From Marmoricola sp. (GTDB lineage Bacteria > Actinomycetota > Actinomycetes > Propionibacteriales > Nocardioidaceae), in the NCBI GenBank assembly GCA_025965315.1, contig JAOPXD010000029.1, forward strand, positions 1 to 64,000: a stretch of 64,000 nt of DNA. Reading direction: 5' to 3'. A program made the translations under genes and the position numbers. Positions 2,993 through 21,103 of the stretch are shown here, piece after piece (position 1 is the stretch's first letter; each line of letters begins with the position of its first letter). The notes beneath the pieces are model-generated. The model was not told the origin of the DNA. It searched no databases and saw nothing but the letters and a program-made list of their open reading frames with translations.

Positions 2993-3367
2993 TTACATCT
3001 GCGGTCGAGGTTCATCGGGGTCTTGCTCGGTGCGCCACTGCTCGACAGTGTTACTAGCCTCGGACAACGGGAGCCATTCCGGGCGGTCGAATGGCGGAAC
3101 GCGGTCCCTGATTCCGTGTTCGTAGCTCAGCCACGACCGGGCGCGCTCTATCTCCGGTATCGACATGCCCGCGATGATGCCGCGAGCCGGCAGACGCGGC
3201 ATGACCAGCGTCTGGTCGACACAATCGACCAGCACCACGCAGTTCTCGCAGATGGCCTTCGCGACCTTCGCTCGGAACGGTTCGAGCCGGGTGTTGCAGT
3301 CGAAGTATTTGTCCACGACGAAGGCGGGGAGGTCGGCGCAGTTGGCCCCCTCAAGCGAGGACCTCAT
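2993..3367 (-). CDS. WhiB-like (Wbl) iron-sulfur protein
   Basis: This 124-residue protein has four cysteines spaced as in Wbl proteins: Cys10, Cys40, Cys43 and Cys49 (C-x29-C-x2-C-x5-C, with CENCVVLVDC readable). They are followed by GIIAGMS, which corresponds to the G[VI]WGG turn of the family, here with the tryptophan lost. Wbl proteins bind a 4Fe-4S cluster and modulate transcription through the primary sigma factor. The start overlaps the stop of the replication-relaxation gene (ATGA), so it is the last gene of the conjugation operon. An extra cysteine at 24 and the divergent turn make it an atypical member. It may link element transfer to redox state. Confidence 0.8.
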   Translation of the reverse strand: MRSSLEGANCADLPAFVVDKYFDCNTRLEPFRAKVAKAICENCVVLVDCVDQTLVMPRLPARGIIAGMSIPEIERARSWLSYEHGIRDRVPPFDRPEWLPLSEASNTVEQWRTEQDPDEPRPQM

Positions 3368-4356
3368 GCGTCGCCTCGCAGCCAGTCACCCCCTTCGCCT
3401 CGCAGGCACGACAACAGCTCAGCATCGGTCGTCACGCGGTAGTTGGCCGCCTTGAGATGGCGGGCGTTGGTAATGCGCTCGGCAAGCTTGCTGGCCCGCC
3501 GCTCGTCCGGCACCACCCACACGATGAGTGGGAAGACACCGTGCTCGGCCTCGGCCTGGCCGCTGCGGCGGTAAGCCTCGTAGCGGTCGCATTGCTTCAG
3601 TACAGTCGGCAGACTTTCGGTTCCCCTATCGACCTCGATGAACCAATGCTCTTCAAAGTCAGCGTCGTCGGGAGTCACGGTGATGGCGAACAGGTCGGGC
3701 TTGAGGACTTCGGTTCCGCCGAAACTGGTGAAGCGGCGCCAGGCTCGCGGCTCAATCACGCACTGCAAGACAGAGATACTGCCGCCGGCTCGTTCGGCCT
3801 GAACCAGCGCCAAGCGGACGTCTGCAATGGCGAGGTAGTGCGCGATAAAGCGCTCGCCGGGTTCGCGGACCGTGCCGGTGGCACCACGGCCGCTGCGCAG
3901 GTTGCGGAGCCGCTGACCAACGGATGTCAGCATCCAAGTGCTCGACGTCGAGCCCGCGTGAAGGCCACCGATATGTCGCCGCGTGCGCTCGATGAGCTGG
4001 TCTCGCTCGAGGCGCGCCAGGACCCGGCGGGCGACTCTTGCTCCTGAACCTTCTGAACTGTGGTCATAGAAGCAAAAGGATTCGATGTGCTTGCCCGTCA
4101 GGAAACGGTGCTCGGCTACCAGGTCGAGAACAGCGACGTCGCGAGGGCTGAGCCGAGAAAGGACATCGGTGAGCCCAGCTTGCCCGGGACCCCGGGCCCG
4201 GCGTTTGCGAACTGACGAGGACGGATTAGGAACAGACAGTCTTTCGTGTCCGCTAAATCGCTCGACGGGCTGCTGACCTGCGTCTCCGCCTTCGCGGTGG
4301 TCGTTTCGGCTGGTACGGCGACCGGTACAGCTGGAGTCAGGTCGGGTGCCGCTCAT
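3364..4356 (-). CDS. Replication-relaxation family protein
   Basis: This 330-residue protein has a basic, low-complexity N-terminus (about 1-60), a winged-helix-like segment (LSPRDVAVLDLVAEHRFLT...) and a C-terminal region with FIEVDRGTESLPTVLKQ, the hallmark of the actinobacterial Replic_Relax family (PF13814). Members are found on conjugative plasmids and integrative elements and are thought to act in plasmid relaxation or replication; biochemistry is limited. It overlaps both neighbours by 4 nt, downstream of the coupling ATPase and upstream of the WhiB-like gene, so the genes form one transfer operon. Confidence 0.8.
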   Translation of the reverse strand: MSGTRPDSSCTGRRTSRNDHREGGDAGQQPVERFSGHERLSVPNPSSSVRKRRARGPGQAGLTDVLSRLSPRDVAVLDLVAEHRFLTGKHIESFCFYDHSSEGSGARVARRVLARLERDQLIERTRRHIGGLHAGSTSSTWMLTSVGQRLRNLRSGRGATGTVREPGERFIAHYLAIADVRLALVQAERAGGSISVLQCVIEPRAWRRFTSFGGTEVLKPDLFAITVTPDDADFEEHWFIEVDRGTESLPTVLKQCDRYEAYRRSGQAEAEHGVFPLIVWVVPDERRASKLAERITNARHLKAANYRVTTDAELLSCLRGEGGDWLRGDA

Positions 4357-6515
4357 ACTTGCCTCCGGCGGCGTCCCGTTGTGCCGAGTTGGTCAGCCGG
4401 GGCCAAACCGTCGACCAGACTCTGGAAACCACGTTCAACCTCGTCAAGCGACCGACCGTAGCGTTCACGACTCATCCGGCGCAGCGCTTCTGGGTCCGAA
4501 ATGGCGGGGCTTGGCGGGAGAGTGCGGCCTGATGCGTAGGGATTGACCTTTCCGTTCGCGAACAGGCTGGCGTAGACCTCGTACTGCCCAAGCGACGTCA
4601 GGTCCTCGGGTGAAATCTCGGGGTGGCCCTTGCTGAATGTGACGGCGTCCTCATGACTCATCTGAAAAAGCACTCTGCTGCGGCAGTTGGCCAAAACGGC
4701 ACTCTTGAGCTCAGTGCCATATTGGGCGGCGAACTGATTTCCGAGCGTCCAAGAAGCGCCGAATCCCCTCGATTGGGCCAGCGCTTCGCCGATGTCGCCC
4801 AGGTGGAGGTAGTCCTGGGCCTCGTCAATGGTCACCATGATGGGGTGACGACGTTCTTGAGGGATGGCGGCGCGGGATTGGATGGCCTGCCACAACTGAG
4901 CGACCACCAACGACCCGAGCAACTTGCTGGTCTCGTTCCCGATGACGCCCCGGCGCAGCGGCACCAGCAAAATCTTGCGTTCGGTCAGCACTTGGCGCAT
5001 ATCGAATCGTGGCTCGACTTGGCCGACCACGGCTCGCAGACCTGGGTCGAGGAACCACTGGCGAAGACGATTCATGACCGGCGCGATGGCGGCACTGCGT
5101 TCCGCTTCCGACAACTTCTCGTACCAAGCCCAAAACGGGCCGAGCGCGATTGGGTCGTTGATGTGCTGGGTGAGCGACCGGCGAAAGCCGGTGTTGGTCA
5201 GTAGCAGCGGCAACATGACCAGCGAGGTGTTCGGGTGACGCGCCAATGTGAGGAGTGAACAGTTGAGGATGTCGTGCATCCGCGGGCCCCAAGCATCGGC
5301 ACCGTACATCGCCCTGAATACGGCGAGGACGCCATCGGCCACAACCTCAGCTGATTGACCCGGCGCGACATGAACGACGTTGAGCCCGACTGGTCTGGTC
5401 TCAGTTGGGTCTAGGACGACCACATCCCTGTGACGGTGTTCGGGGACGTGCTGCAGGACGTCTGCGAGGACGAGGTCACCTTTCGGCTCTATGACGCATA
5501 CCGCGCGGCCGTCAGCAATGTCTTGAGCTATGAGCCGTCCGAGCAAGGTCGACTTCCCGGCGTTCGTGGGAGATGTTACGAGCAGGTGCTGCAACGCGTT
5601 TCGCGCCGACAAACGAAGCGGCACGTCAACTCGTCCTGGCGCAGTACTGACCGCCACGACGCGGCCGGAGGTCGTACCGGGCGCCGGCTGTAGCAGCCGC
5701 GGGTGCAGCGGAGGCTGACCGGGCATGGCGGCATCGCCGACAGGCCACGCCGTCGCGACAGCCAAGACCTCGGCGATGTTCAGGCGCAATGGCCAGCCCC
5801 ATGGCGGCCGGGCTCCGACGTTGATACGGGTCGAAGACTCGCGGCGAAGCTTTAGCTGAACCCCAGGGCCCTCGTTCGTCCGCAGGGCACTCAGGACGTC
5901 GTGAGCAAGGTTACGACGGCGTGATGGCGACGGGGCGCTCACTCCGATGCGCACTGCGCAGGCGAAGCCATGGTCCGATGTCTTGGTTCGCAGCGCGGCA
6001 CGCTTCTCTCCATCCACGGGCCCACCGTTGCCGCGCCACAGCACAGCCCACCATGGGGCGGCGACCGACGACGGGCTGTTGTTGGGCACGGACAACGGCA
6101 CGCGCCCCGGACCAAGGACCACTTGCAGGACGAGGCACTCGTCCTCACCGGCTCCTGCGAGTGCTGTGTGAATGACCCGGGCACTATCTTCGATGCCAGC
6201 CGTCCGGAAGCTGCGGTGACGCGTTGTTGCCTTGACCTGACGAGCCACCGCGACCGGCGCGCGCTGACGGGCGCTGGTCACGACGGTTCCGGCGGTCAGT
6301 GTTGTGAGGAGGTTCGCTACCGCCGAAGCCTGGGGCGGCGGGCAGCCCACCCAGAACGTGACGACCCCGTTGCTACCGCGCGTTTCAAAGACCAACCGAG
6401 TTCCGCGCTGGTCACTCGATAGCCGTCGCAAAAGTGCCAAGCACGCCGTCTCGTCGAGGGGACGATGCCAGTGAATTTGGCGCCAGACCATGCGAGGGTC
6501 CGTCTGAGCACTCAT
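4353..6515 (-). CDS. Type IV secretion coupling-type ATPase (VirD4/TcpA/TraD-like)
   Basis: This 720-residue protein has a Walker A motif TNAGKSTLL at about 316-325, followed by CVIEPKGDLV as in coupling proteins, and a Walker B IMVTIDEAQDYL at about 557-568. The region with the QSRGFGASWTLGNQFAAQ segment matches the TraM-recognition/TraD C-terminal fold. The 300-residue N-terminal extension lacks clear membrane helices, unlike classical VirD4. Such ATPases bring DNA to a mating channel. No VirB4, lytic transglycosylase or relaxase gene was found in the window, so transfer may rely on a helper or on an unrecognised relaxase. Its start overlaps the stop of the small gene upstream. Confidence 0.85.
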   Translation of the reverse strand: MSAQTDPRMVWRQIHWHRPLDETACLALLRRLSSDQRGTRLVFETRGSNGVVTFWVGCPPPQASAVANLLTTLTAGTVVTSARQRAPVAVARQVKATTRHRSFRTAGIEDSARVIHTALAGAGEDECLVLQVVLGPGRVPLSVPNNSPSSVAAPWWAVLWRGNGGPVDGEKRAALRTKTSDHGFACAVRIGVSAPSPSRRRNLAHDVLSALRTNEGPGVQLKLRRESSTRINVGARPPWGWPLRLNIAEVLAVATAWPVGDAAMPGQPPLHPRLLQPAPGTTSGRVVAVSTAPGRVDVPLRLSARNALQHLLVTSPTNAGKSTLLGRLIAQDIADGRAVCVIEPKGDLVLADVLQHVPEHRHRDVVVLDPTETRPVGLNVVHVAPGQSAEVVADGVLAVFRAMYGADAWGPRMHDILNCSLLTLARHPNTSLVMLPLLLTNTGFRRSLTQHINDPIALGPFWAWYEKLSEAERSAAIAPVMNRLRQWFLDPGLRAVVGQVEPRFDMRQVLTERKILLVPLRRGVIGNETSKLLGSLVVAQLWQAIQSRAAIPQERRHPIMVTIDEAQDYLHLGDIGEALAQSRGFGASWTLGNQFAAQYGTELKSAVLANCRSRVLFQMSHEDAVTFSKGHPEISPEDLTSLGQYEVYASLFANGKVNPYASGRTLPPSPAISDPEALRRMSRERYGRSLDEVERGFQSLVDGLAPADQLGTTGRRRRQV

Positions 6516-8053: not shown

Positions 8054-8082
8054 TTGCAATATAACGCGATATATCGTACAAT
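8054..8082 (+). promoter_or_regulatory. Strong sigma-70-type promoter with palindromic spacer, near-leaderless
   Basis: TTGCAA (8054-8059) and TACAAT (8077-8082) are separated by exactly 17 bp. The spacer holds the 10-bp palindrome CGATATATCG (8067-8076), a possible operator. Transcription should begin about 6-8 bases before ATG 8096, so the mRNA has almost no leader. This also shows that the track start at 8054 is wrong, because it lies inside the -35 box. Confidence 0.7.
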
Positions 8083-8095
8083 AGTTGTCGTAACA

Positions 8096-8632
8096 ATGAC
8101 CGCCGAGCAACACACACCGGAACAGGTACCACAGCAGGAGCAAGCGCCGCTCCTGTTCGACTTGGAGCGGATGCCGCAGGCACAGATTCGATATCTTGGT
8201 CGAGCGCTATCTCGGCAGGCCATCGAGCTACTCGAGCCCGACACCGATTGGTCAACCCGACAGCAGATACTGCGGCAAGCGCACCAGGGCGCACCGTACG
8301 CCGTCTACGAGGCCTTCAGTGGCGCGTTGGCTGCGTACTTCAACGCAGACCCCGTCGCCCGTTTCCCGTTCTTCAGTCGCCTCATTTGGAGTGGCCGAAA
8401 ATACGAAGCCCTTGCTGCCTACGAAGCGGTACGTGGTTTCCTGGGCACCCCCGTGGAGGAGCTGGCGATAGCCACTCTGGCGGCTGTCGATGCCGAGCTG
8501 TGGAGCCTTCCCGGGTGGCCGTCCGAGCACGCCGACGAGGCCCTGCCAGCGGAATACAGAGCGCGCTTCGACGCGTGGTCCGAAGCGATGGACAAGGACT
8601 GTCCTACGAGCCCCGGCAGGCCTGCGGAATAG
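8096..8632 (+). CDS. Hypothetical protein upstream of the STAND-type NTPase
   Basis: This 178-residue protein starts at ATG 8096 (MTAEQHTPEQVPQQEQ), dictated by the promoter position. After a Gln/Glu-rich N-terminus it contains predicted helices and conserved-looking aromatic clusters (YNF-type, RFPFFSRLIWSGRKYEALAAYEAV). I recognise no domain. The NTPase gene begins 42 bp downstream on the same strand, so the two probably share the 8054 promoter. It could be a regulator, sensor or partner of that NTPase. Confidence 0.65.
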   Translation: MTAEQHTPEQVPQQEQAPLLFDLERMPQAQIRYLGRALSRQAIELLEPDTDWSTRQQILRQAHQGAPYAVYEAFSGALAAYFNADPVARFPFFSRLIWSGRKYEALAAYEAVRGFLGTPVEELAIATLAAVDAELWSLPGWPSEHADEALPAEYRARFDAWSEAMDKDCPTSPGRPAE

Positions 8633-8674
8633 ACGCGAGAGGACCCAGGTCCAAGCGAGCCTCATAATCTGAGT

Positions 8675-11296
8675 ATGAGTGGCGACGTTGTGCGAGGCGA
8701 CTTGGCCAAGGAGATTGGTAGGGCAATTCGCAGTGGTATGGACGTGGCATTCACGACGGCCCACCTGAACGCGGACAACTCTGTCTACGGCCCGCTCCTG
8801 GCTTCAATCTTGGCGCAAGTCTTTCCGCGTACGTGGTCGAAGAACCAGAACGAAGCTTTTCAGACTGCCATGCGGCTTGCTGCTGAAGCCTTGCCTGGGG
8901 AGTCTGAGTACCAGTTCGCTGATGGCCGCGTAGACCGTCACTTGCGCCGACACGTCACCTACCGCGAGCTCGCGCAGCTGATGACGGCTAGTGGTGTGGA
9001 CGACTTCAATCCGCGGAGGTGGAAGGGTGTCCTGGAAGCGGGCCGAACGCTTATGTTCGGTACTACCGGCGACGGTCGGCTTGAATCTGCGAAGGAGTCC
9101 GAGTTTCGCCGGAATCGTGAGCGGGTGTTCCAGGCAATGTCGGAGGAACTGGCCGCGATGCCCCAGTTGGAGCCGAAGCCTGGAGAACGCGGCATCGGAA
9201 ACTATTCCAACGAGGTGCGTCGGTCCGACATCGAAGACAGAGTGCTCTCGTTTATCAATGATGCTGGCGGGCCAATCGCGCTCGTGGGGGAGTCTGGTAA
9301 CGGTAAGTCTTTCGTAGCTCGTCAGTTGATTCGCGAGGCCTTCAGTGCCCATCGGGTCGCTGAAGTCCACGAAGGACGTGGCGACGAGTCGCTATTCGCG
9401 ACTGACTTGTCGGGTCTCCTGCGGCGCGCGGGATGGGACCAACCTCACCAGTCAGTTGCAGACAAGGTCGACGCCGTACGTGAGGTACTTAAGAATCCGG
9501 CCGCTTTTGACCTTGTGCTCTTCGACAACGTCGACCTATGGGTACTTGAGGCAGTGTTGCCCGATGCCCAAGTCCCCATCCTCATCACGTCGCGTGAGAG
9601 GCTCGGCGACCTAGTTGCTGAAGATGTCATCGTTCCTGAGTTCACCAAGTCTCAGGCTCTCGAGGCTTCGCGCTATCTCCTCCCTGGCCGTGAAGACATC
9701 GAACTCGAAGCGTTGTGTTCGGACGTTGGAAATCGGCCGGTAGTGATTCACATCGCCTGTCACCTCATTTCTGAGGAGCACCTCACGGTGGAGAACTTCA
9801 GGCGGAGCATGGCAGAGAACTCAGCAAAAGTTCTGCGTTCGATGGCAGCGGAGCTGGGCAGACACCACGACCATTTCGGCAACCCAATCAACGGGAACAT
9901 CGTCGGCGTGTATCAGCACACGCTGAATCACATATTTGACGCAGAGAGTGATGGCCGAGGCGGCGACCCGCCCGTAGCAGACGTACTCGATGCGATTTTG
10001 TGGCTAACCGAGTCTGCGGATATTGAATTTATATATGCACTCGCAAGCGACACACTGACGGAGGCTGAGTTCCAACGTGTCCGTGGCGCGGTGAGCGTTC
10101 TTGCTCGCTTTGGCCTGATTACCCACCGCGGTACCTCCATTGAAATCAACACGCTGACTCTTGACGTCCTGCGGCATTTGCAAGGAGACAGAGCTCCCGG
10201 AACGGTGGGGCGTACTCTTAGTCGCTTGAGACAAGCGGCTGTGACTTTTCGGGACCGTGACGCGGACTGGAGAACGTTGACTGCACACGAGCGAGCGGCT
10301 GCATATCGAACTGGCTTCTTTCTTGCGATAGTCCACGTCGATGGAGTTTACGAGTCCATGTTCCCGAACCTCCCAGGGCGCGTGTATCCGCTCCTGAACA
10401 CGATGGTGGCGTATCAAGATTCCGCCTTCTTCGAACCGGACGACGAGCGCCGCTACGGAGTCTTGACTGCCGAGATATCGACGGGAGAGTTGCGCTGGCT
10501 CTGGACCTCCACGAGGTCGAAGGTCGGAGTTCTTGACGGTGACCAAGACGGCGGAATACTCGCGATGGCCTGGTTGGCGCACTGTACTCAGCGGTCGGAC
10601 TACCCAGACGCGTTTGAAAGCTCGGGACACGTTGGAGAGATGTTCCTCGGTCTCACTCGACGAGCACAAACCCAATTTCGCCACGTCTCAATGTCGGTCG
10701 TGCCAGACCCGATAGCGGCCCACTATGGTTCCGAGTGTTGGACCCTGTGCGGAGAATGGCAGGTTCCAAGCATCGACTACGAATTACGTCTTTGCACGCG
10801 ATGTGCTGATTTGGTTCGTCCAGAGAGACGGCTTCTGCGGCTCCGTCTAGGCGCACGACTCATATCGCTAGAAAAGATTGCGGAGAACTACGGTTCTCCC
10901 TGGAATATGCGCCTAATGTTGATGAACGTGCTCTACTATGTTATCGATTCGGAAACTGGGTTCCTGGGCTTTTCGAGATTCTTGGAAGAGATGGATGAGC
11001 AAGAAGTCGCGATGACGCGTGACTTGTATCTGTTCTCCTTGGCTTTAAGCGATGCGGTTCGCCGGATGCGAATGGGTGAGATTGAAGAACTTAGGGTTTT
11101 GGCGGAGTGGGTTGCGGGGAGAATAATTGCCGACCCAATTCCCGCTATGAATCGTGACGTCGCGCTGTTCATTCTCGACGGAATAGCAGAATTGTGCACG
11201 GCGGCTAACCTGTTGGAGAGCGCGGATAACGCGCGAGCGTCCCAGCGCGTCATCGAATCAATGCCGAATGTGGCGCCCGCAGATGGGACGGCATAG
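8675..11296 (+). CDS. STAND/NB-ARC-like P-loop NTPase, candidate defence protein
   Basis: This 873-residue protein has an N-terminal helical region without a recognised effector (1-190). Its P-loop NTPase has Walker A GESGNGKSF at about 205-213, Walker B FDLVLFDNVD at about 278-287 and a sensor-like strand ILITSRE at about 302-308, the NB-ARC/STAND order. A long helical C-terminal half follows, with a possible zinc ribbon (CWTLC ... CTRCADL, about 690-720). STAND proteins act as oligomerising switches in immunity, often against phage proteins. Neighbours are an unknown 178-residue protein upstream and a two-helix membrane protein downstream, which could be the killing effector. The defence role is inferred from architecture and from position in a mobile element. 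Confidence 0.75.
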   Translation: MSGDVVRGDLAKEIGRAIRSGMDVAFTTAHLNADNSVYGPLLASILAQVFPRTWSKNQNEAFQTAMRLAAEALPGESEYQFADGRVDRHLRRHVTYRELAQLMTASGVDDFNPRRWKGVLEAGRTLMFGTTGDGRLESAKESEFRRNRERVFQAMSEELAAMPQLEPKPGERGIGNYSNEVRRSDIEDRVLSFINDAGGPIALVGESGNGKSFVARQLIREAFSAHRVAEVHEGRGDESLFATDLSGLLRRAGWDQPHQSVADKVDAVREVLKNPAAFDLVLFDNVDLWVLEAVLPDAQVPILITSRERLGDLVAEDVIVPEFTKSQALEASRYLLPGREDIELEALCSDVGNRPVVIHIACHLISEEHLTVENFRRSMAENSAKVLRSMAAELGRHHDHFGNPINGNIVGVYQHTLNHIFDAESDGRGGDPPVADVLDAILWLTESADIEFIYALASDTLTEAEFQRVRGAVSVLARFGLITHRGTSIEINTLTLDVLRHLQGDRAPGTVGRTLSRLRQAAVTFRDRDADWRTLTAHERAAAYRTGFFLAIVHVDGVYESMFPNLPGRVYPLLNTMVAYQDSAFFEPDDERRYGVLTAEISTGELRWLWTSTRSKVGVLDGDQDGGILAMAWLAHCTQRSDYPDAFESSGHVGEMFLGLTRRAQTQFRHVSMSVVPDPIAAHYGSECWTLCGEWQVPSIDYELRLCTRCADLVRPERRLLRLRLGARLISLEKIAENYGSPWNMRLMLMNVLYYVIDSETGFLGFSRFLEEMDEQEVAMTRDLYLFSLALSDAVRRMRMGEIEELRVLAEWVAGRIIADPIPAMNRDVALFILDGIAELCTAANLLESADNARASQRVIESMPNVAPADGTA

Positions 11297-11348
11297 ATTG
11301 TCCGTATTCTGAACCTGAATTTCTCGCACTTGTTCCAAATTGATTGCG

Positions 11349-11361
11349 ACAATGATATTGT
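11349..11361. promoter_or_regulatory. Small inverted repeat in an AT-rich promoter region
   Basis: ACAAT-GAT-ATTGT forms a 5-bp inverted repeat in the AT-rich 74 bases between the NTPase stop and GTG 11371. It may be a promoter element or operator for the membrane protein gene. The evidence is only sequence symmetry. Confidence 0.3.
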
Positions 11362-11370
11362 GTTTAGTAA

Positions 11371-12519
11371 GTGAATCACGATTCTTCAGACAGTCGAATA
11401 TTTAAACTAAAGACCTCCTTGGTCTCAGTCCTCATGGTCTTCATCGGCCTGGCGTTCATGCTTTTCTCCAAGTACGCGGCCACTGTCTCCAGACTCCACT
11501 GGACGACCTATTGGCCCTTCTTCGAACTCGGCTCAACGCTCTTCGTCACTGGTGCCCTGGTTAACGTTTGGGACTACGTGGATGGCCGCGACAAGGAACA
11601 CCGTGAGAACGACCGCATCCGTCGGCTGCTCAAGGAAGCTGCGCCCGAGTTCCGTGATGCTGTCGTCGAGGGTTTCGCGGTCTCACCTGAGGACCTAGCT
11701 CGCGTTGCTACTCCCGAGCTGCTCGACAGCATCGCGACGAACGTGCTGAGCCTGAGACTCGGTGACCGGCAGTTCGCCAGCGAGTTGTATGCCGACCTCC
11801 GCGACCTAGCGATTCGTTCACCGGAGAGATGGCACAACGTGCAGGTACGGGTACGTCTCTCTACTGCAGTAGAGAGGAGCGCCAAAGGCGCTCCTCTGTT
11901 CGACGTGCTCGTTGAGTGGGAGTACACAACAATCCCCACGCATCCGATTCAGCGCTTCGCCTGTGTCTCGGACCGTGATGACTTCCAGGAACTTGTCAGT
12001 GATGTGCCGGCCACCCTGACCTGGCTCATGACCGACCGCGATGGCCTCGATGCTCGCGAGCAGAAGAACTACGAGTTACTGGCGTTCTCGGTGGACGGCG
12101 AAGAGCGTTCCATCCGACGTGCGAAGCGAGCCTCAGGCCAGGTGTACAGCGCGTCTATTGGCGAGGAAGCCGTGCGGGAGGCCAAGCCCGTACGGATTCG
12201 TCAGCTCTATCGAGTCGTCACGCCGCAGAGCGGACACCGGCTCTACTTCGAGGTTGGCCAGCCAACCCGCGGCTTCTCGCTCGAGGTCGACTACACCGAC
12301 ACAGACATCGCGCACATGAGTGTTACTGAACTGGTGAGCAGCAGCCACCCATCGCAAGTGTCTTCAATGCCAAGGCAGGTCGACGCCCGCATCTTGGGTA
12401 TCGACCTGCCCGGTTGGCTCTTGCCGAAGTCCGGCTTCGCCTTTGTGTGGACGCTCAGGAGCGAGCGCTCCGGAGGGTCGTCAGGCGAGAACGAACTCGT
12501 TCCAGCCAAGTCGGCCTGA
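11371..12519 (+). CDS. Two-helix membrane protein with large cytoplasmic domain, unknown
   Basis: This 382-residue protein starts at GTG 11371. Two hydrophobic helices lie at about 16-33 (SVLMVFIGLAFMLFSKY) and 47-66 (FFELGSTLFVTGALVNVW), followed by a soluble domain of about 300 residues with alternating strands and helices. I do not recognise the domain. Its layout (membrane hairpin plus cytoplasmic domain) is common for effectors in bacterial conflict systems, and it follows the STAND-type NTPase by 74 bp. A link to that gene is plausible but unproved. Confidence 0.65.
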   Translation: MNHDSSDSRIFKLKTSLVSVLMVFIGLAFMLFSKYAATVSRLHWTTYWPFFELGSTLFVTGALVNVWDYVDGRDKEHRENDRIRRLLKEAAPEFRDAVVEGFAVSPEDLARVATPELLDSIATNVLSLRLGDRQFASELYADLRDLAIRSPERWHNVQVRVRLSTAVERSAKGAPLFDVLVEWEYTTIPTHPIQRFACVSDRDDFQELVSDVPATLTWLMTDRDGLDAREQKNYELLAFSVDGEERSIRRAKRASGQVYSASIGEEAVREAKPVRIRQLYRVVTPQSGHRLYFEVGQPTRGFSLEVDYTDTDIAHMSVTELVSSSHPSQVSSMPRQVDARILGIDLPGWLLPKSGFAFVWTLRSERSGGSSGENELVPAKSA

Positions 12520-12604
12520 TGTGAACCTGCGTGAAGTCGCCACCGCTCATGGGTCTGTCTCCTTAAGTCGTTGCGTGGACCAGTCGCCAAGCCAACTGAA
12601 AATA

Positions 12605-12618
12605 GCATGTATACATGC
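12605..12618. promoter_or_regulatory. 14-bp palindrome overlapping the XRE start codon
   Basis: GCATGTATACATGC is a perfect palindrome whose third base begins ATG 12607. An operator over the start codon would suit autoregulation of the XRE gene, perhaps of a leaderless message. Confidence 0.45.
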
Positions 12619-12939
12619 GCATGTGACGGCACCTTTGCGACAACGCTCGGACCTGTGTCTGCGCGCCGAGCTTCTGAGGAGCCGTGGCGCGCCTATGCCC
12701 GCGAGCTCGGTGTTCGACTGCATCGAGAGCGGATTCAGCGCGGGCTAACGCAGGAGCGGCTCGCCGTAGCCGCCGGGATTTCGACGTTTACCTATCGCAA
12801 GTTGGAGAAGGGCGAGTCAAACCCAGGCACGCCGGCTAACCCACGTCTTCACACGCTTGTTGCGCTGGCCGAGGTCATGGATGTGGACATCTCGGCCCTG
12901 TTACCGCCCGCCCCGGGCGGCATAGCCATCGGGCGGTAG
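12607..12939 (+). CDS. XRE-family transcriptional regulator
   Basis: Translation from ATG 12607 gives 110 residues (the track prefers GTG 12571). A helix-turn-helix of the XRE type spans about residues 35-95 (RIQRGLTQERLAVAAGISTFTYRKLEKGE), ending in a short Pro/Gly tail. A variable loop (SNPGTPANPRLHT) interrupts the fourth helix, as in a subgroup of actinobacterial XRE proteins. It stands alone between two unknown genes. Its target is unknown, but the palindrome over its start codon suggests self-control. Confidence 0.75.
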   Translation: MYTCACDGTFATTLGPVSARRASEEPWRAYARELGVRLHRERIQRGLTQERLAVAAGISTFTYRKLEKGESNPGTPANPRLHTLVALAEVMDVDISALLPPAPGGIAIGR

Positions 12940-13269
12940 GCAGCCGGAGCCCGCGCCACATGTTGGGCGAGCGTCCCGCTTGTCCGCACGAAGCCATATG
13001 CATAAGGCGCGGGAGTGAACTTACAAACGGCGTGTTTGCGGGAGGCCCCGCGGCTGCTGTGTAACTCTCGCTAGGCAGTCGGCATGTTGATTCACGCTCT
13101 TCCCGGGGCCTCGGCGTGTTGAACCGTCGACGCTGCGCGACGCATTGGTCGGTTGCGTTCGTGGAGTCACATGCGATTTGGTGGCGCGCGAACTGAGTCA
13201 GATTGGCAAGGTATGAGCCCCGTTTGCATCCCTCCGCTGGCGTGTCAGTACGTAGTGGTTCACGTACAC
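12940..13269. other. No gene recognised
   Basis: This 330-base stretch lies between the XRE gene and the DUF4760-like gene. Open frames exist on both strands, but none has a credible start or protein-like composition. The downstream gene may begin earlier (ATG 13213 or 13171) and take up part of it. Confidence 0.4.
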
Positions 13270-13893
13270 ATGTCGCCAACTCCTGTCCACGTTTCCACTG
13301 GTCACCTGTGGGTCACGGTGCTCGCCGCTGTTGCGACATCCGCCAGCGCCTTCTTCGCGCTCCTTGGCGTACATGCCGCGCGGAAGAGCGCGGAGACGGG
13401 TAAGGCGGCGCTGGAGAACACCCTTGCAATCCAGGAGCAAGCGCGGGAGTCGCAGCGCAAGACCGCGACCATCGACTACTGGCGAAACACGTACGGTGAC
13501 AGGGTCCGGCTGCGCGCCGCCCTTGGCTACGAACACGGCGTGTCGTTCACGGAACGTGTGCGGAAGCTGACTGAGTTCTACCAAGGCAACTCGCTAAGAG
13601 AGATTCCGCCACGTCGACGCCCTCTCAACCGCGACGACCGCAACCTGCGTGAATACCTCAGCATCTTCGAGACGCTGGGTGCGGGCGTGTGTGAAGACGC
13701 CTTCGACCTAGAGGTTCTCTACGGACTCGATGGCCCACGAATCATTGCTCTCGGAGAGTGCGTAGATGACTACCTCAAAGCCCGGCGACCACACGTTCGC
13801 GAACTGCAAGAAGCTACCTTCTACGGGTATTTCGCGAAGCTTGTTGCTCGGCTCCGGGCGCACGCAGCAGCGAGGGCCACAACAGGCAGTTGA
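13270..13893 (+). CDS. DUF4760-like membrane-anchored protein
   Basis: From ATG 13270 the product is 207 residues (upstream in-frame starts give up to 246). An N-terminal helix (LWVTVLAAVATSASAFFALLGVHAA) is followed by a coiled-coil-like stretch and then a domain with DYWRNTYGDRVRLRAA and LREYLSIFETLGAGVCEDAFDLEVLYGLDG, which resembles DUF4760. Such proteins have unknown function and are frequent in accessory regions. The start is uncertain because no candidate has a clear ribosome-binding site. Family assignment is moderate. Confidence 0.6.
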   Translation: MSPTPVHVSTGHLWVTVLAAVATSASAFFALLGVHAARKSAETGKAALENTLAIQEQARESQRKTATIDYWRNTYGDRVRLRAALGYEHGVSFTERVRKLTEFYQGNSLREIPPRRRPLNRDDRNLREYLSIFETLGAGVCEDAFDLEVLYGLDGPRIIALGECVDDYLKARRPHVRELQEATFYGYFAKLVARLRAHAAARATTGS

Positions 13894-14499: not shown

Positions 14500-16188
14500 G
14501 TGCTCACCGGGGACTCCGCAGAACTACGCAAAGCGCGTGGTGCGTTTTTCACCCCCTACGCGATTGCGGAGTATCTAGCGGACTGGGCGCTCCGCGGCGA
14601 CGGCAACGAAGGCATGATTCTCGACCCGACTTGCGGTGAGGGAGTCTTCCTACTTGCGGCAGCCGACCGCTCTGTGGCGGACGAGCGTCTCCCGCCGGCT
14701 CGGTTGTTTGGTGTCGACATTCATACGGACTCCTTGGACGAAACCGCTCGACTCCTGCGGACTGCAGGGCACGAGCAGCCAGCCACACTTCTGACTGGAA
14801 ACTTCTTCGAAGAGCCGCATCCGGGCCAGCTTGGTGCTCGCATTCCATACGTGGACGCAGTCGTCGGAAATCCGCCGTTCGTTCGCTACCACGAGCACCG
14901 TGGCGAGGCGCGTCGTCGGGCTTCGGCAGCCGCGCTCGCCCAAGGCGTCCGCTTGTCAGGTCTTGCATCGTCGTGGGCCGCGCTACTGGTTCATGCCTCC
15001 AGCTTCCTGAAGCCAGATGGCCGTATCGCCATGGTTGTCCCGGCGGAGTTGCTCTCGGTTGGGTACGCGGAGCCCATCCGTCAATGGCTCCGCCGACGCT
15101 TCAAGGCAGTGCACCTCGTCTTGTTCGACCAGCTCCAGTTCGCTGACGCAGAGGAGCAAGTAGTGCTCCTTGTTGCTCGAGGAACTGGTGGCTGTAGTGC
15201 CTTCACCCTCCACGAAGTCAGCGACGCTGACGAGCTGATGAGACTGCACATCTTCGACTCGGATGCATTCGCTCCGAGTGATAGCGGCAAGTGGACCGAG
15301 CTACTCGTGCCTGATGACGTCCGGGGCATCCTGCGACGTTCGATGACCGAAGAGTTCACAACGCTCTCCAAGTACGGGCGAGTTGAACTCGGGACGGTCA
15401 CGGGCGCCAATAACTTCTTCACCCTTACTGAGGCGACTCGGCAGGAGTTCAACCTGCTACCTGACAAACACGTCATCAAGACGCTGCCACCCGGAAGTCG
15501 TCACCTGGCTGGGCTGCACTTCACAGCTGGTCAGTGGGAGCAACTCAAGCTCGACGGCCAGCGAGTTTGGATGCTCAGCCCAACCGTTCAGAAGCCCTCA
15601 CCCGGTAGCGGACTTCAGCGATACATCGACCTCGGCGTTGCCAACGAAGTCGACCGCGGCTATAAGTGCTCGATTCGCACGCCATGGTGGCGTGCGCCCG
15701 CACAGCCACCACCGGACATGTTCTTCACCTACATGAGTCACGTTTGCCCACGCCTCGTGAGCAACGACGCGGGCACGACGTTTGTGAATTCACTGCATGG
15801 CCTGACGCTTAACTCAGACTTGAGTGAAGACGAGCGCACGGCGCTGCCATTCGTCATGTTCAGCACAATCAGCATGCTGAACGCAGAGCTTGTGGGTCGT
15901 GCCTACGGCGGCGGCATCCTCAAGATGGAGCCGCGCGAAGCAGACGTATTGGCTCTCCCGCGTCGCGACCACCTCCTGCGCACCTGGGCTGAACTGCGCG
16001 GTCGACGACACGAGCTGGACCAACTCGTGCGAGCGAAGAGTTGGCAGCAAGTCACCGAAATCGTCGACGAAGCGTTGCTAACCAATACGCTCATGGTCAC
16101 CAGTGACGACTTGCGCAAGCTCCGAGCCGCGCTTCGGCGTCAACGAGCACGCAGGCAACGTCGGGAGGGACATGGCAGCGCCGACTGA
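14500..16188 (+). CDS. N6-adenine DNA methyltransferase (TaqI/Eco57I-like)
   Basis: This 562-residue protein starts at GTG 14500, with a -10-like TAGAAT about 8-13 bases upstream that suggests a leaderless message. Motif X is GAFFTPYAIAEYL (about 14-26), motif I ILDPTCGEGVFLLAA (about 45-59) and catalytic motif IV GNPPFVRYH (about 127-135). The order is that of gamma-class N6-adenine methyltransferases. The C-terminal half would carry target recognition. No nuclease domain is fused to it. The putative nuclease gene overlaps its last 17 bases. The enzyme should protect host DNA for the cassette. Confidence 0.88.
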   Translation: MLTGDSAELRKARGAFFTPYAIAEYLADWALRGDGNEGMILDPTCGEGVFLLAAADRSVADERLPPARLFGVDIHTDSLDETARLLRTAGHEQPATLLTGNFFEEPHPGQLGARIPYVDAVVGNPPFVRYHEHRGEARRRASAAALAQGVRLSGLASSWAALLVHASSFLKPDGRIAMVVPAELLSVGYAEPIRQWLRRRFKAVHLVLFDQLQFADAEEQVVLLVARGTGGCSAFTLHEVSDADELMRLHIFDSDAFAPSDSGKWTELLVPDDVRGILRRSMTEEFTTLSKYGRVELGTVTGANNFFTLTEATRQEFNLLPDKHVIKTLPPGSRHLAGLHFTAGQWEQLKLDGQRVWMLSPTVQKPSPGSGLQRYIDLGVANEVDRGYKCSIRTPWWRAPAQPPPDMFFTYMSHVCPRLVSNDAGTTFVNSLHGLTLNSDLSEDERTALPFVMFSTISMLNAELVGRAYGGGILKMEPREADVLALPRRDHLLRTWAELRGRRHELDQLVRAKSWQQVTEIVDEALLTNTLMVTSDDLRKLRAALRRQRARRQRREGHGSAD

Positions 16189-17122
16189 GGACGGCTTCGC
16201 CCAGTTTGATGGGCTGCTGAGCGCTGCAGACACATCCCACAGTCCGTGGACCGACAGTACCTACATTCCAAATCTCGACCTGCTCCAGCAGATGCTGAGC
16301 CTGCCAATTTCTCAGGGCGACAAGCAGGAGTCGGGTCGCCCTGCCAAGGCCTTCGACGCTTGGGTTGCGCATGAGCTGCGGCGTTCAGGATTTCCAGCGG
16401 ACGCTGTGTTTCCTCGGATGCGGCGACCGCGGGTTCTGTTTGAGGGGCTGGGCTCGCTCGAAGCCAAAATTGAGGAGCTCGCCGCTGCCCTCGAGTCTGC
16501 CGAGCCAGGTGACGAGAAGGTCAAGCCGGCTCCGTTGCGCCGCGCGATTCGAGCCGTCACTGGTCACAACGTTGGGCAGTCGACGGCCTACATCCTTGGT
16601 GACTTTTACGCGAAGCAGATTGATGTTGGTCTGTCGACCTGGGAACGAGGGCCGGACATCCTCATCTCGACTAAGACGATGTTCTCGGCCTTCGGCAAGA
16701 ACCTGAAGAATCGCCATGAGGAAGCGGTCGGTGAGGTTAGTAGCTTGCGCCGCCGACACCCGATGGCGGCGATGGGCTACTGCTACCTCGTCCGTGAAGA
16801 CATTGTTCGCCAGCCGAATGCCTACGCGACCCTTTACGACATCCTTCACAGGCTCCGGCGCCCGGGAGAGGCTTTCGATGCGACACTGCTTCTTGCGGCC
16901 AACTGGGATGACAACGACCCTTCAGCTGGCGTGCAGTTGCTTGACGAGCCAGCCGCTGAGCTGTCGGCCTCGCGCTTCTTCAAGGACATAGTCGAAGCGG
17001 TCATGGACCGCTCACCAAACCGGATTCACCAGGAGGTGCGCCGCCGTCGCGGCGGTACGCCGTTCGAGCGTTTGGACATCTCGTGGACCGACGACATCGA
17101 ACTGGGCGAGGATGTCGAATGA
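16172..17122 (+). CDS. Putative restriction endonuclease partner of the methyltransferase
   Basis: ATG 16172 (MAAPTEDGF) is preferred over the track start 16103 because GGGAGGG precedes it. The product is 316 residues. A central segment, ERGPDILISTKTMFSAF (about 160-176), has the D-x(n)-[ES]xK look of a PD-(D/E)XK nuclease core, followed by a helical RHEEAVGEVSSLRRRHP stretch and a strand GYCYLVRE. The acidic residue expected before the lysine is Ser, so the catalytic assignment is tentative. It overlaps the methyltransferase by 17 nt, the usual layout of a type II restriction-modification pair. Confidence 0.65.
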   Translation: MAAPTEDGFAQFDGLLSAADTSHSPWTDSTYIPNLDLLQQMLSLPISQGDKQESGRPAKAFDAWVAHELRRSGFPADAVFPRMRRPRVLFEGLGSLEAKIEELAAALESAEPGDEKVKPAPLRRAIRAVTGHNVGQSTAYILGDFYAKQIDVGLSTWERGPDILISTKTMFSAFGKNLKNRHEEAVGEVSSLRRRHPMAAMGYCYLVREDIVRQPNAYATLYDILHRLRRPGEAFDATLLLAANWDDNDPSAGVQLLDEPAAELSASRFFKDIVEAVMDRSPNRIHQEVRRRRGGTPFERLDISWTDDIELGEDVE

Positions 17123-17188
17123 CGGCGACTGTATCGCTGACTCTGGAGACGAATACGCTCGGCGACCCCGGGACGGAGGTTTAGCGAC

Positions 17189-18346
17189 GTGGAAGCGCGC
17201 CCCTCGGACGTTGACGTTGAGGTGATGGTCAATCGCATCGCGAGCGGTGAGCTTGACCTGCAGCCAGAGTTTCAGCGCGGCGAGGTTTGGGACATCAAGC
17301 GGCGGCAGAGGCTCATCGACACGTTGCTCCGCGAGTGGTACGTGCCGGCCGTTCATATTGTCCAAGATGACGACCGCCGTTCGTCGGTGCTGGACGGCCA
17401 GCAGCGGCTTGTCGCTATTCGCGACTTCTTCGCTGGAGAGTTCCCCGTAGATGGCTTCGTAGAGCCGCTCGACCCAAAGATTCAGGACCTGCACGGCAAG
17501 TATTTCGGTGACCTCCCACAGGAAGTCACCCGTGCTCTGAAGACCTATCCACTGGCCGTGGTCTACCTACGTGAGTACACGCCCGGGGAGCCCAATGAGT
17601 TGTTCTTCCGATTGAATCAGTCGTACAACCTAACGCCCCCGGAGAAGCGAAATGCCCTGCATGGCCCGGCACGAAATCAGGTCCGCGACCTTGTCGAAGA
17701 CTTGCAGTCTCATGGACTGCTGAATCGCGACCTCATTGGTTTTTCGAATCAACGCCTGGCCTACGACGATGTCGTGGCGCGCGCCTGCGTAGCTATCGAG
17801 CAAGGGACGCTGCGTAAGCACATTAACAACACGACTGTTGAGCAGTACTACCGCAGTATGGACGACTTCTCAGGCACCACTGTCGAGGGCATTCGGATAG
17901 CTGGCCGCGAGCTCTACGACCAAGTCATGGGTGCAGGTCGAGTGAAGTTCAACAAGGGGACCCTACAAACTTGGCTGTTGTACTGCCATTGGGCCTCGGA
18001 GTTAACGGGACCACTACCGAGCAGTCTGTTAGAGCGCTTTGAGATTGACCGGCAGCATGTGAAGCGACGTGAGTTCGACCAAGACACTTCTCAACGACAG
18101 CGGCTTCTGTCGGTGGTCGGCGTGTACGACGACCGTGCGTCCTATCGTGTAACTGACGTGAGTTCGGTTGTTGCGCGCGACCTCGCCATCCATCTGTATT
18201 CGGTGGCAACGTTCGGCACTGAAGGCCGCAGACGCTCGCTCGAACTCGTCGACCGTCTCGAACACGACCGACGAGCAGACCCCACGACCTTGATGTTCGA
18301 CTACATGGAGCAAGTGCAGTGGGGCGAACCGCTGGATTCGGATTAA
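17189..18346 (+). CDS. DUF262 (ParB/GmrS-like) protein
   Basis: This 385-residue protein starts at GTG 17189, with GGAGG about ten bases upstream. The DUF262 signature is clear: LQPEFQRGEVWDIKRRQRLIDTLL (about 28-51) and VLDGQQRL (about 70-77), the nucleotide-binding DGQQR motif of the ParB/Srx-like fold. DUF262 proteins include the GmrS half of the modification-dependent enzyme GmrSD and parts of several defence systems. No DUF1524 HNH nuclease domain is visible here. It sits between the putative nuclease and the ATPase-TOPRIM gene, and a degenerate copy of its N-terminus follows at 19741. Confidence 0.82.
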   Translation: MEARPSDVDVEVMVNRIASGELDLQPEFQRGEVWDIKRRQRLIDTLLREWYVPAVHIVQDDDRRSSVLDGQQRLVAIRDFFAGEFPVDGFVEPLDPKIQDLHGKYFGDLPQEVTRALKTYPLAVVYLREYTPGEPNELFFRLNQSYNLTPPEKRNALHGPARNQVRDLVEDLQSHGLLNRDLIGFSNQRLAYDDVVARACVAIEQGTLRKHINNTTVEQYYRSMDDFSGTTVEGIRIAGRELYDQVMGAGRVKFNKGTLQTWLLYCHWASELTGPLPSSLLERFEIDRQHVKRREFDQDTSQRQRLLSVVGVYDDRASYRVTDVSSVVARDLAIHLYSVATFGTEGRRRSLELVDRLEHDRRADPTTLMFDYMEQVQWGEPLDSD

Positions 18347-18349
18347 TCC

Positions 18350-19678
18350 GTGCGCAAAGCGAGAGAACTAGATGTACTCCGGCCACTCAAGAGCCGAGAC
18401 CTCACCGTCGTTGAAGCCTTCGCGTTAAGCGAAGGGTCTGTTCTTGACCTTGCTGCGCCATGCACGGTGATTGGCGGACGCAACGGCACTGGGAAGAGCC
18501 GACTAATACGCGAGATTGCTTCGCAAAAGGGCGATGAAGCGTTGCTCATCGACCTCCACTATCTCGCCGAGCATGCGCTGACGGTGCTTCGAAATCGGTT
18601 CGACTACAACTCCATGGCCGACGAAGCCGGGCCGTTCGGTCCCAACCCGGACATCGGTGACTACGTCGAAGCCATCGTCAAGCGCGACTACGACTCGATT
18701 GAGTGGTTCGCATTGGAGCTTGAGACCGAAAACGGTGAGGTGGACGAGCGCTTCCGGTGGACGGGTGAACCTGGTGACCCTGCCTTGTTCCCATACTTCC
18801 GAGCCACCTACCGAGGAATCGGTTATACGTCGCCGCACATGGGCCTTGGCGAGTTTTCGGTGCACTTCTTGTTCTGGATTCTCGAGCACTATAAGGACAA
18901 GAAGGGTCTGCTCGTACTCCTAGATGAACCTGACGCATTCCTTCCTCCCGTTGGTGTGGCTTCACTGTTGCCCCACCTGTTCAAGCTATGTACCGACCGA
19001 GGGTGGCGCCTCGTTGTGAGCACACACTCTGAGGAGATGATTGCTCTCGCAGCCGAGCACCAGTCATTTACGTTGCTCAGTGTCAACGACTTCGGCGAGT
19101 CGTTTGCGACTCACTCGTCAGCTGACCCGAGCGTCCTGTTGGAAGTCCTGTCCCGGCCACCTGTCGATACCGTTCTTTTCGCCGAGGACGAGGCCGCGGT
19201 TGCTTTGGCCTCAGCGCTCATCGAGCACGTCGACCCGATGCTGAGGAGACGCATGTCTATCGTCTGGGGCGGTGGCAGCGGATACATGCAGACGTTGCAA
19301 CAGAAGCTGCCCCGCACTCCGGGAGCGCGGATTCGATTCGGCTATCTGTACGACGGGGACCAGCGTGACAACATCGCAAAGTCGCCAGCTGACAAGTGGC
19401 CAGCGCTCTTTCTTCCGACTCACAACGACCCAGACATCTTGTTGCGGGAGCTGGGCGACGACCCGGAACGTTTGGGGGAGCGACTCGGCGTCACGGCGGA
19501 CCGGGTACGGCGAGTTCTGGACAGGCTCGAGGGCAAGGACAAGCACGACTGGTTCAATGAATTTTGTGCGGAGTTCGGCCGACCACAGGTCTTGGCAGTG
19601 ATGACGTCGGAATGGGCGAAGAGAAACACTGAACATGCAACGTCATTCGTCGATGACTTGGTCAAAGCCATTCGATAG
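18350..19678 (+). CDS. ABC-type ATPase with TOPRIM-like domain (OLD-like)
   Basis: This 442-residue protein starts at GTG 18350, three bases after the DUF262 stop. Walker A GGRNGTGKSRL lies at about 42-52, a signature-like MGLGEFSVHF at about 164-173, Walker B LLVLLDEPDAFL at about 184-195 and the switch histidine VVSTHS at about 222-227. The C-terminal third has VLFAEDEAAVALA and YLYDGDQ, matching the Glu and DxD metal sites of TOPRIM domains, as in OLD-family nucleases. OLD proteins cut DNA and work in phage defence with partners such as GajB. Here the partner may be the DUF262 protein or the restriction pair. Confidence 0.82.
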   Translation: MRKARELDVLRPLKSRDLTVVEAFALSEGSVLDLAAPCTVIGGRNGTGKSRLIREIASQKGDEALLIDLHYLAEHALTVLRNRFDYNSMADEAGPFGPNPDIGDYVEAIVKRDYDSIEWFALELETENGEVDERFRWTGEPGDPALFPYFRATYRGIGYTSPHMGLGEFSVHFLFWILEHYKDKKGLLVLLDEPDAFLPPVGVASLLPHLFKLCTDRGWRLVVSTHSEEMIALAAEHQSFTLLSVNDFGESFATHSSADPSVLLEVLSRPPVDTVLFAEDEAAVALASALIEHVDPMLRRRMSIVWGGGSGYMQTLQQKLPRTPGARIRFGYLYDGDQRDNIAKSPADKWPALFLPTHNDPDILLRELGDDPERLGERLGVTADRVRRVLDRLEGKDKHDWFNEFCAEFGRPQVLAVMTSEWAKRNTEHATSFVDDLVKAIR

Positions 19679-19740: not shown

Positions 19741-19944
19741 ATGACTGGAAAGCCCGACGAAGTTCCGTCCAAGCGCTTGCTTGCTTGGATACCGCCCTAT
19801 GAGCTCTGGGACGTCAAGCGGCGACACCGGCTCATCGCGATGCGGTTCATGGCAGTGCCTTTCGTTAGAGAAGTCAAAAACTACGCCCGACCCCCGACAA
19901 GTGAGATGCGCCGCGTCGGGTGGTCATGCGAGCGGGTGAGCTGA
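19741..19944 (+). pseudogene. DUF262 remnant
   Basis: The frame beginning at ATG 19741 contains PPYELWDVKRRHRLIAMRF, which aligns with GEVWDIKRRQRLIDTLL of the intact DUF262 gene at 17189. The similarity extends to the DNA (GGGAC-TCAAGCGGCG). The rest of the domain, including DGQQR, is missing. It is therefore a decayed fragment, not a functional DUF262 protein. Its stop overlaps the start of the next small gene (TGATG), so it may be translated and pass ribosomes to that gene. Confidence 0.6.
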
Positions 19945-20201
19945 TGGACAACTCGCCCGCTGACGGAGTACTACTTGAACCCAGGAAGTTGGCGGACCAG
20001 AAGGAGGCCAACGTGTTGCTCAGGACACTTGCGACCATTCGTGAATCCAGCGGAGCACAACCCACCGTGCGATACGACGAGACCCAGAAGATGAGTTACG
20101 TTCAGGAAGGTGGCGCGTGGGTCCCAAGCTTTGAGTCACATGCGTTCAGTGGGACAAAAAAGGCGGACCTTGAGACGGGCGAGGACCAAAAGGGTCAATG
20201 A
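19944..20201 (+). CDS. Small protein, candidate substrate peptide of the ATP-grasp ligase
   Basis: ATG 19944 is preceded by GGTGAG. The 85-residue product begins MDNSPADGVLLEPRKLAD, has a helical leader-like part, and ends in a Ser/Thr/Lys- and Asp/Glu-rich tail (FSGTKKADLETGEDQKGQ). Its stop overlaps the ATP-grasp start by 4 nt. A short gene with a hydroxyl/Lys- and acid-rich tail directly before a MvdD/TgmB-like ATP-grasp gene matches graspetide precursors, whose side chains are joined by ester or amide bonds. I see no repeated core motif, so this role is inferred from context and composition. Confidence 0.6.
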   Translation: MDNSPADGVLLEPRKLADQKEANVLLRTLATIRESSGAQPTVRYDETQKMSYVQEGGAWVPSFESHAFSGTKKADLETGEDQKGQ

Positions 20202-21103
20202 CCCAAGCCGAGTCCGGCACAGTTCTGGTTGTCACAAACGAGCGTGACTTCGCAGCCGACACAGTCATTGCCTCGGTTCTGGCCCGAGGTTGGAACGTCG
20301 AGCGGTGGAACACCGAAACGCATGCAGCCGTCAGCTGGAGACCGCAGGCCGTGCACGCCACAGACGACTACTCAGCGGTGTGGCTACGACAGTTTCTTGC
20401 CGACCCGCTGCCGACTACATCGGTCCGGGAGGTCGATGACTTCCTAGTGTCGCGTGAACAGTGGCGGACGTGGTTGACCGACCTCGCAGAGGGTCATGCC
20501 CGATGGATGAATCCGCTATGGGCTTCCCGTCGAGCTGAGAACAAGCTCGTACAGCTACGCACCGCCGGTGACGTCGGACTCGCAGTCCCGCCAACACTCG
20601 TGACGACCTCGCGTGTTGAGGCCGCCGAGCACCAGCGGCGCGTGGGTGACTGCGTCGTGAAGGCCCTCGCCAGTGCCTACTTCCCCTTCTCGGACTCAGC
20701 ATTCATGTTCACTAGGGACCTCGACGCGGCCCTTAGTCTGGCCGCGGATGAGTGGTCGGACCCAGTCATCGTGCAACGCAAGGTCATGCCTCGTGTCGAC
20801 GTACGAGTCTTTGTCGTCGGCGGCTTCGTGACTGGGGCGCGCACGGTGGTTTCGGGCACCGATTGGCGAACTAGCGCCGGTGAAGCGACCTGGGAGCGGC
20901 TCCTTGTCCCTGACGACCTTGCGTCCGCTTGCAAGTCATTGCTCCAACAGCTCGGGCTGGCATACGGCGCGATTGACTTTGCATACGACGGAAGGACGAT
21001 GTGGTTCCTGGAGTGCAACCAGGCCGGCGAGTTCGGGTTCGTGGACCGACCGTTAAAACTTGGTGTATCCAACGCGATTGCTGGCTGGCTATGCGCCCGT
21101 TGA
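20198..21103 (+). CDS. ATP-grasp peptide ligase (RimK/MvdD/TgmB-like)
   Basis: This 301-residue protein resembles the ATP-grasp maturases of graspetides. After an N-terminal domain (TVLVVTNERDFAADTVIASVLARG) come a central domain with the ATP-binding lysine in CVVKALASAYF (about 154-164), the strand PVIVQRKVMPRVDVRVFVVGG (about 189-208) and the metal-binding segment YGAIDFAYDGRTMWFLECNQAGEFGFVD (about 255-282), where MvdD-type enzymes have GAIDL...FLEINPNGQW. It overlaps the small peptide gene upstream and the membrane protein gene downstream, so the three genes form one translationally coupled unit. The likely reaction is ATP-dependent side-chain ester or amide formation on the peptide. Confidence 0.8.
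   Translation: MTQAESGTVLVVTNERDFAADTVIASVLARGWNVERWNTETHAAVSWRPQAVHATDDYSAVWLRQFLADPLPTTSVREVDDFLVSREQWRTWLTDLAEGHARWMNPLWASRRAENKLVQLRTAGDVGLAVPPTLVTTSRVEAAEHQRRVGDCVVKALASAYFPFSDSAFMFTRDLDAALSLAADEWSDPVIVQRKVMPRVDVRVFVVGGFVTGARTVVSGTDWRTSAGEATWERLLVPDDLASACKSLLQQLGLAYGAIDFAYDGRTMWFLECNQAGEFGFVDRPLKLGVSNAIAGWLCAR

Follow-up and report, generated by a model that had tools for sequence, protein, structure and literature searches.

Genes and features of the locus

The window analyzed here is a 64,000-nucleotide stretch from the start of a Marmoricola sp. contig (JAOPXD010000029.1). Between positions 8054 and 12519, it carries three consecutive genes, P0001, P0002, and P0003, with an XRE-family regulator gene just beyond (Table 1). 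The initial annotation had described this stretch as a three-gene unit, in which a strong near-leaderless promoter drives a 178-residue protein without a known family and a STAND-type NTPase, followed by a two-helix membrane protein. All three open reading frames are present where they had been placed, with 178 codons and no family match for P0001 and two long N-terminal helices in P0003. P0001 ends 42 bp before P0002, and a gap of 74 bp separates P0002 from P0003, all on the same strand. Codon scores of 0.13 (P0001) and 0.11 (P0002) per codon are like those of the island's other genes, and rival frames overlapping the two genes have lower or negative scores.

Table 1. Coordinates of the genes, motifs, and sites discussed in the text (window positions unless a locus is named).
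Feature	Coordinates	Strand	Description
ImmA-like protease gene	1847-2497
XRE-like gene	2525-2974
Replic_Relax gene	3364-4356
TraD-like coupling gene	4353-6515
Promoter-like site	8054-8082	+	TTGCAA-17-TACAAT; consensus match only, 9/12 positions
P0001	8096-8632	+	178 aa; predicted soluble; no relatives or known domains
P0002	8675-11296	+	873 aa; STAND ATPase, AP-ATPase/NB-ARC clade (by sequence and model); orphan N-terminal region 1-180, NB-ARC 181-400, helical and winged-helix-like 407-504, orphan helical C-terminal region 505-873
Walker A of P0002	9287-9310	+	GESGNGKS, residues 205-212; sequence and alignment
Walker B of P0002	9506-9535	+	FDLVLFDNVD, residues 278-287; sequence and alignment
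hhTSR of P0002	9578-9598	+	ILITSRE, residues 302-308; T305 invariant, S306 and R307 nearly so in alignment
GxP of P0002	9728-9757	+	GNRPVVIHIA, residues 352-361; P355 invariant in alignment
Cysteine cluster of P0002	10730-10804	+	CX3C...CX2C, residues 686-710; from sequence; possible zinc site
P0003	11371-12519	+	382 aa; two N-terminal hydrophobic helices, helical linker, beta-rich domain 154-362
Palindrome GCATGTATACATGC	12605-12618		perfect, 14 bp; just upstream of XRE gene
XRE-family HTH regulator	12655-12939	+	near-constant partner of P0003 homologues
DUF4760 protein	13153-13893		1.4e-10; N-terminal hydrophobic stretch; between XRE gene and methylase
Eco57I-type methylase	14500-16188
GmrSD N-domain protein	17189-18346		matches NsnA
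AAA gene	18350-19678		similar to ATPase-TOPRIM defense models
DUF4062 protein	22603-25011		802 aa; matches defense candidate PDC-S60, 1.7e-20
NB-ARC protein of L067	L067:10646-13276	-	876 aa; Gordonia polyisoprenivorans

The locus lies in a region of reduced GC content, which extends from the window start to approximately position 33000 (55 to 65%, compared to 68 to 71% in most of the rest). This region looks like a mobilizable element based on its ImmA-like, XRE-like, Replic_Relax, and TraD-like genes, and the genes downstream of the locus appear to be defense cargo. Four genes in a row (14500 to 19678), consisting of the methylase, a 339-aa gene, the GmrSD-N gene, and the AAA/TOPRIM-like gene, may form one restriction-type system; the 339-aa gene, between the methylase and GmrSD-N genes, belongs to no family and is a possible restriction enzyme. 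Farther downstream, an ATP-grasp peptide maturase (19920 to 21103; TIGR04187, 1.3e-45) is preceded by a 93-aa open reading frame that could be its precursor, making this pair a candidate graspetide cluster. A 2,085-aa secreted protein that by eye is RHS/YD-repeat-like is encoded at the distal end of this island (25226 to 31483).

An orphan STAND ATPase

Judged by its complete switch motifs and the predicted fold of its ATPase core, P0002 is a STAND protein of the AP-ATPase/NB-ARC clade, in agreement with the initial annotation. The Walker A, Walker B, TSR, and GxP motifs are conserved in a 28-row alignment and occur in order in P0002. The NCBIfam model FxSxx_TPR matches residues 198 to 401 (7.6e-12) with 44.5 bits against a cutoff of 300, and no Pfam model, including NB-ARC and NACHT, reaches its cutoff (AAA_16, 19.6 bits; AAA_22, 17.6 bits; NACHT, 15.8 bits with a cutoff of 26.7). 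Despite these subthreshold Pfam matches, we placed P0002 in the clade on the features that properly define it, namely, the motifs, the profile alignment, and the fold. In the AlphaFold model, pLDDT is approximately 90 for residues 181 to 390 and around or below 50 for the N- and C-terminal parts, with the winged-helix-like segment (463 to 504) also modeled at lower confidence than the NB-ARC core. Among PDB structures, Apaf-1 and plant NRC NLRs match best, and CED-4 ranks lower. The fold of the NTPase and of the region following it, as well as the motif set, are common to P0002 and these eukaryotic proteins, whereas P0002 has bacterial orphan flanks in which no CARD, TIR, LRR, or WD40 domain was found.

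Sequence relatives of P0002 are likewise confined to the switch. Actinobacterial NB-ARC proteins are approximately 22 to 33% identical to P0002, almost only over residues 180 to 390, and a 1,367-aa protein aligns with residues 181 to 507, through the winged-helix region. Several of the matches examined further are TPR-bearing FxsT proteins (NCBIfam NF040586), in which the NB-ARC core is approximately 25 to 30% identical over about 200 residues. Membership of FxsT entails a full-length match above the cutoff and C-terminal TPRs, neither of which P0002 has, and its N- and C-terminal regions are different. In 991 partly overlapping genome lookups across the family, order, and class, we found NB-ARC matches, mostly at 24 to 31% identity, and no full-length relative. 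None was recovered either from a pattern scan of 85,462 species, from viral contigs, plasmids, or phages, or from 10 records carrying P0003 relatives, a set without a positive control; pattern scans detect close relatives only. The N- and C-terminal regions queried separately had no relatives in the samples searched.

The STAND-type NTPase and the defense-like setting recall Avs5 (PMC12931631), bNACHT25 (PMC12169576), and the CARD-NLR-like LypABC (PMC13236601), but P0002 matches none of the models for these systems and has no recognized effector. PADLOC yielded no fitting model; its top hit, mad8 (E value of 0.013), is a generic P-loop match. The earlier observation that no known STAND effector domain is visible holds across family and defense models, the alignment, and structure matches. 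A possible zinc ribbon had also been noted, and although the CX3C...CX2C set is present, the ribbon was not confirmed in a part of the model where confidence is below 50.

P0001 and its promoter

No domain or profile model matches P0001, and no credible relative was detected among plasmids or the 298 genomes searched from the order. A lone match to a longer, unrelated-looking gene (E value of 6e-4 over 57 residues) was judged to be due to chance. Comparing P0001 with P0002 revealed no shared effector-associated domain. Judged from position alone, P0001 would be the partner of P0002, and the two genes are presumably cotranscribed. The promoter-like site contains the palindrome CGATATATCG in its spacer (8067 to 8076), and its -10 box lies 13 nt from the ATG, predicting a transcript start a few bases ahead of the P0001 start codon. 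The site, the spacer palindrome, and the near-leaderless distance are as first reported, but a site with 9 of 12 consensus positions is only modestly above chance, given a scan that found three sites compared to 1.2 expected in shuffled sequences.

A recurring P0003-XRE cassette

P0003 and its XRE partner constitute an unnamed recurring cassette (window, 11371 to 12939; loci L045, L049, and L053 to L083) in which the P0003 gene comes first. We collected 33 loci besides the window: 7 full-length relatives in the 298 genomes of the order and 30 loci in a species collection, some from the same genomes, plus a viral-contig locus (L083) that is a near copy of L065. An XRE gene follows downstream on the same strand at 28 of the 34 loci with the window included (27 of 33 without it), and in 26 of these 28 cases it lies 52 to 216 bp from the P0003 gene. 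Counting divergent upstream XRE genes as well, the numbers rise to 31 of 34 and 30 of 33, respectively, and no other neighbor is near-constant. A GNAT acetyltransferase gene occurs near the P0003 relative at 14 loci, and the cassette is often accompanied by such a gene together with another, divergent XRE gene. The XRE protein of the window is 57% identical to its P0003-partnered counterparts at L049 and L079; its longest open reading frame begins at 12571, but the GTG at 12655 agrees better with relatives. The palindrome GCATGTATACATGC has one match in the window, compared to 0.02 expected with up to two mismatches allowed, and is a candidate autoregulatory operator of the XRE gene.

In most P0003 relatives, a -10-like hexamer with no more than one mismatch lies approximately 9 to 14 nt ahead of the start codon, whereas that of the window is weaker, with two mismatches. 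Single hexamers are often not significant against their own shuffles, and the argument is their recurrence across relatives, which marks near-leaderless expression as characteristic of this cassette. The beta domain of P0003 bears a loose structural likeness to M1 aminopeptidase N-domains and an OST subunit (TM scores of 0.25 to 0.29); as the likeness is only loose, we claim no enzyme. A DnaJ match (E value of 0.02) was judged to be noise. P0003 may be anchored in the membrane and under the control of its XRE partner. In outline only, the pair is like the membrane-associated, two-gene EACC1/caspase-like system of actinobacteria, from which it differs in that the partner of P0003 is an XRE regulator instead of a caspase-like gene.

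To survey the surroundings of the P0003 relatives, we selected ten large neighboring genes by eye rather than at random. Several match known or candidate defense models strongly, for example, GajA (L073 and L075), PDC-S06 (L045 and L079), and PDC-S28 (L049), and L045 also contains type I restriction sequence. That the P0003-XRE cassette may reside in defense islands is a lead. At L067, a different NB-ARC protein lies 1.5 kb from the P0003 relative on the opposite strand. This protein has no Pfam or PADLOC match at an E value of 1e-5 and is related to P0002 in the NB-ARC and following region, the rest not clearly so; we considered it as a bridge between P0003 and P0002 and rejected it on this limited relatedness. 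From this locus, there is a slight residual chance of a loose association of P0003 with STAND proteins.

One unit or two cassettes

The observations above bear on whether the stretch is a single system. In a three-gene STAND immune unit, P0002 would be the sensor, P0003 a membrane-damaging effector, and P0001 an adaptor. The common strand and 74-bp gap between P0002 and P0003, the weakness of the P0003 promoter in the window beside those of its relatives, and the NB-ARC protein at L067 all speak for such a unit. However, among genes called in the fetched flanks, none of the 33 other P0003 loci has a relative of P0002 or P0001, nearly all have the XRE gene as the only near-constant neighbor, and most P0003 relatives have a near-leaderless promoter of their own. 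The initial annotation had itself named a failure to co-occur in relatives as refuting, and this is what we observed for the third gene. The three-gene unit is therefore not supported, and we consider it quite improbable. Since P0003 recurs with XRE and without a STAND, mostly behind its own promoter, the stretch together with the XRE gene is better read as two adjacent cassettes: P0001-P0002, built around an orphan AP-ATPase-type STAND switch, and the independently recurring P0003-XRE. We regard this reading as probable, if by no means secure. P0003 is probably not a partner of P0002, and the suggestion that it might be the STAND effector loses ground because its relatives travel with an XRE regulator rather than with a STAND. 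The promoter layout of P0001 resembles that of the P0003 cassette, and this likeness could account for the impression of a single unit.

Possible functions of P0001-P0002

STAND proteins such as Apaf-1 and NLRs hold ADP at rest and oligomerize once triggered. By analogy, P0002 would hold ADP at rest, and an invader signal would be sensed by its C-terminal 370-residue helical and cysteine-containing region, leading to ATP binding and oligomerization. Relay of the signal to an action that arrests the cell or destroys the invader would fall to the N-terminal 180-residue region or to P0001. In this scheme, the putative sensor lies at the C terminus and the putative output runs through the N terminus or P0001. 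The mobilizable island, with its methylase, GmrSD-N, and AAA/TOPRIM-type genes, makes a defense setting plausible for the STAND, and antiphage or antiplasmid defense is our best guess for the role of P0001-P0002, a plausible one with a roughly even chance or somewhat better. Of the immunity variant first proposed, the defense setting is thereby retained and the three-gene form is not. The searches recovered no relatives for P0001 or for the two flanks of P0002, so that cooperation of P0001 with P0002 and an immune role have no evolutionary proof.

Two nonimmune explanations deserve consideration. P0002 could be a STAND regulator serving the island, acting in transcription or in an FxsT-like peptide pathway, as its nearest named family is the TPR protein of the FxSxx-COOH system. 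We view this as unlikely, given that we found neither a DNA-binding domain nor TPRs in P0002, that the FxSxx_TPR match is far under its cutoff, and that no FxSxx peptide system was recognized nearby, the graspetide-type maturase being 9 kb away and not adjacent. Alternatively, P0002 could be an orphan STAND that is decaying or has recently recombined, and P0001 a small gene unrelated to it, with no functional pair at all. The absence of homologues of both proteins and the lowest GC content of the island would fit, but both open reading frames are intact with neighbor-like codon use and every ATPase motif of P0002 is preserved, so we hold little belief in such decay. The most far-reaching interpretation is also a doubtful one, although less so than either of these: that P0001-P0002 constitutes a two-gene immune STAND not described before, with both its output (the N-terminal region or P0001) and its sensor (the C-terminal cysteine and helical region) of a new type, and that P0003-XRE is a second undescribed cassette that acts in or regulates defense and recurs beside varied defense genes.

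If P0002 does function in defense, it would add to the bacterial relatives of NLRs a STAND protein with unrecognized sensor and output regions. The P0003-XRE cassette may matter more than the STAND, as it recurs across Actinomyces, Gordonia, Nocardioides, Kribbella, and Tsukamurella and is directly testable.
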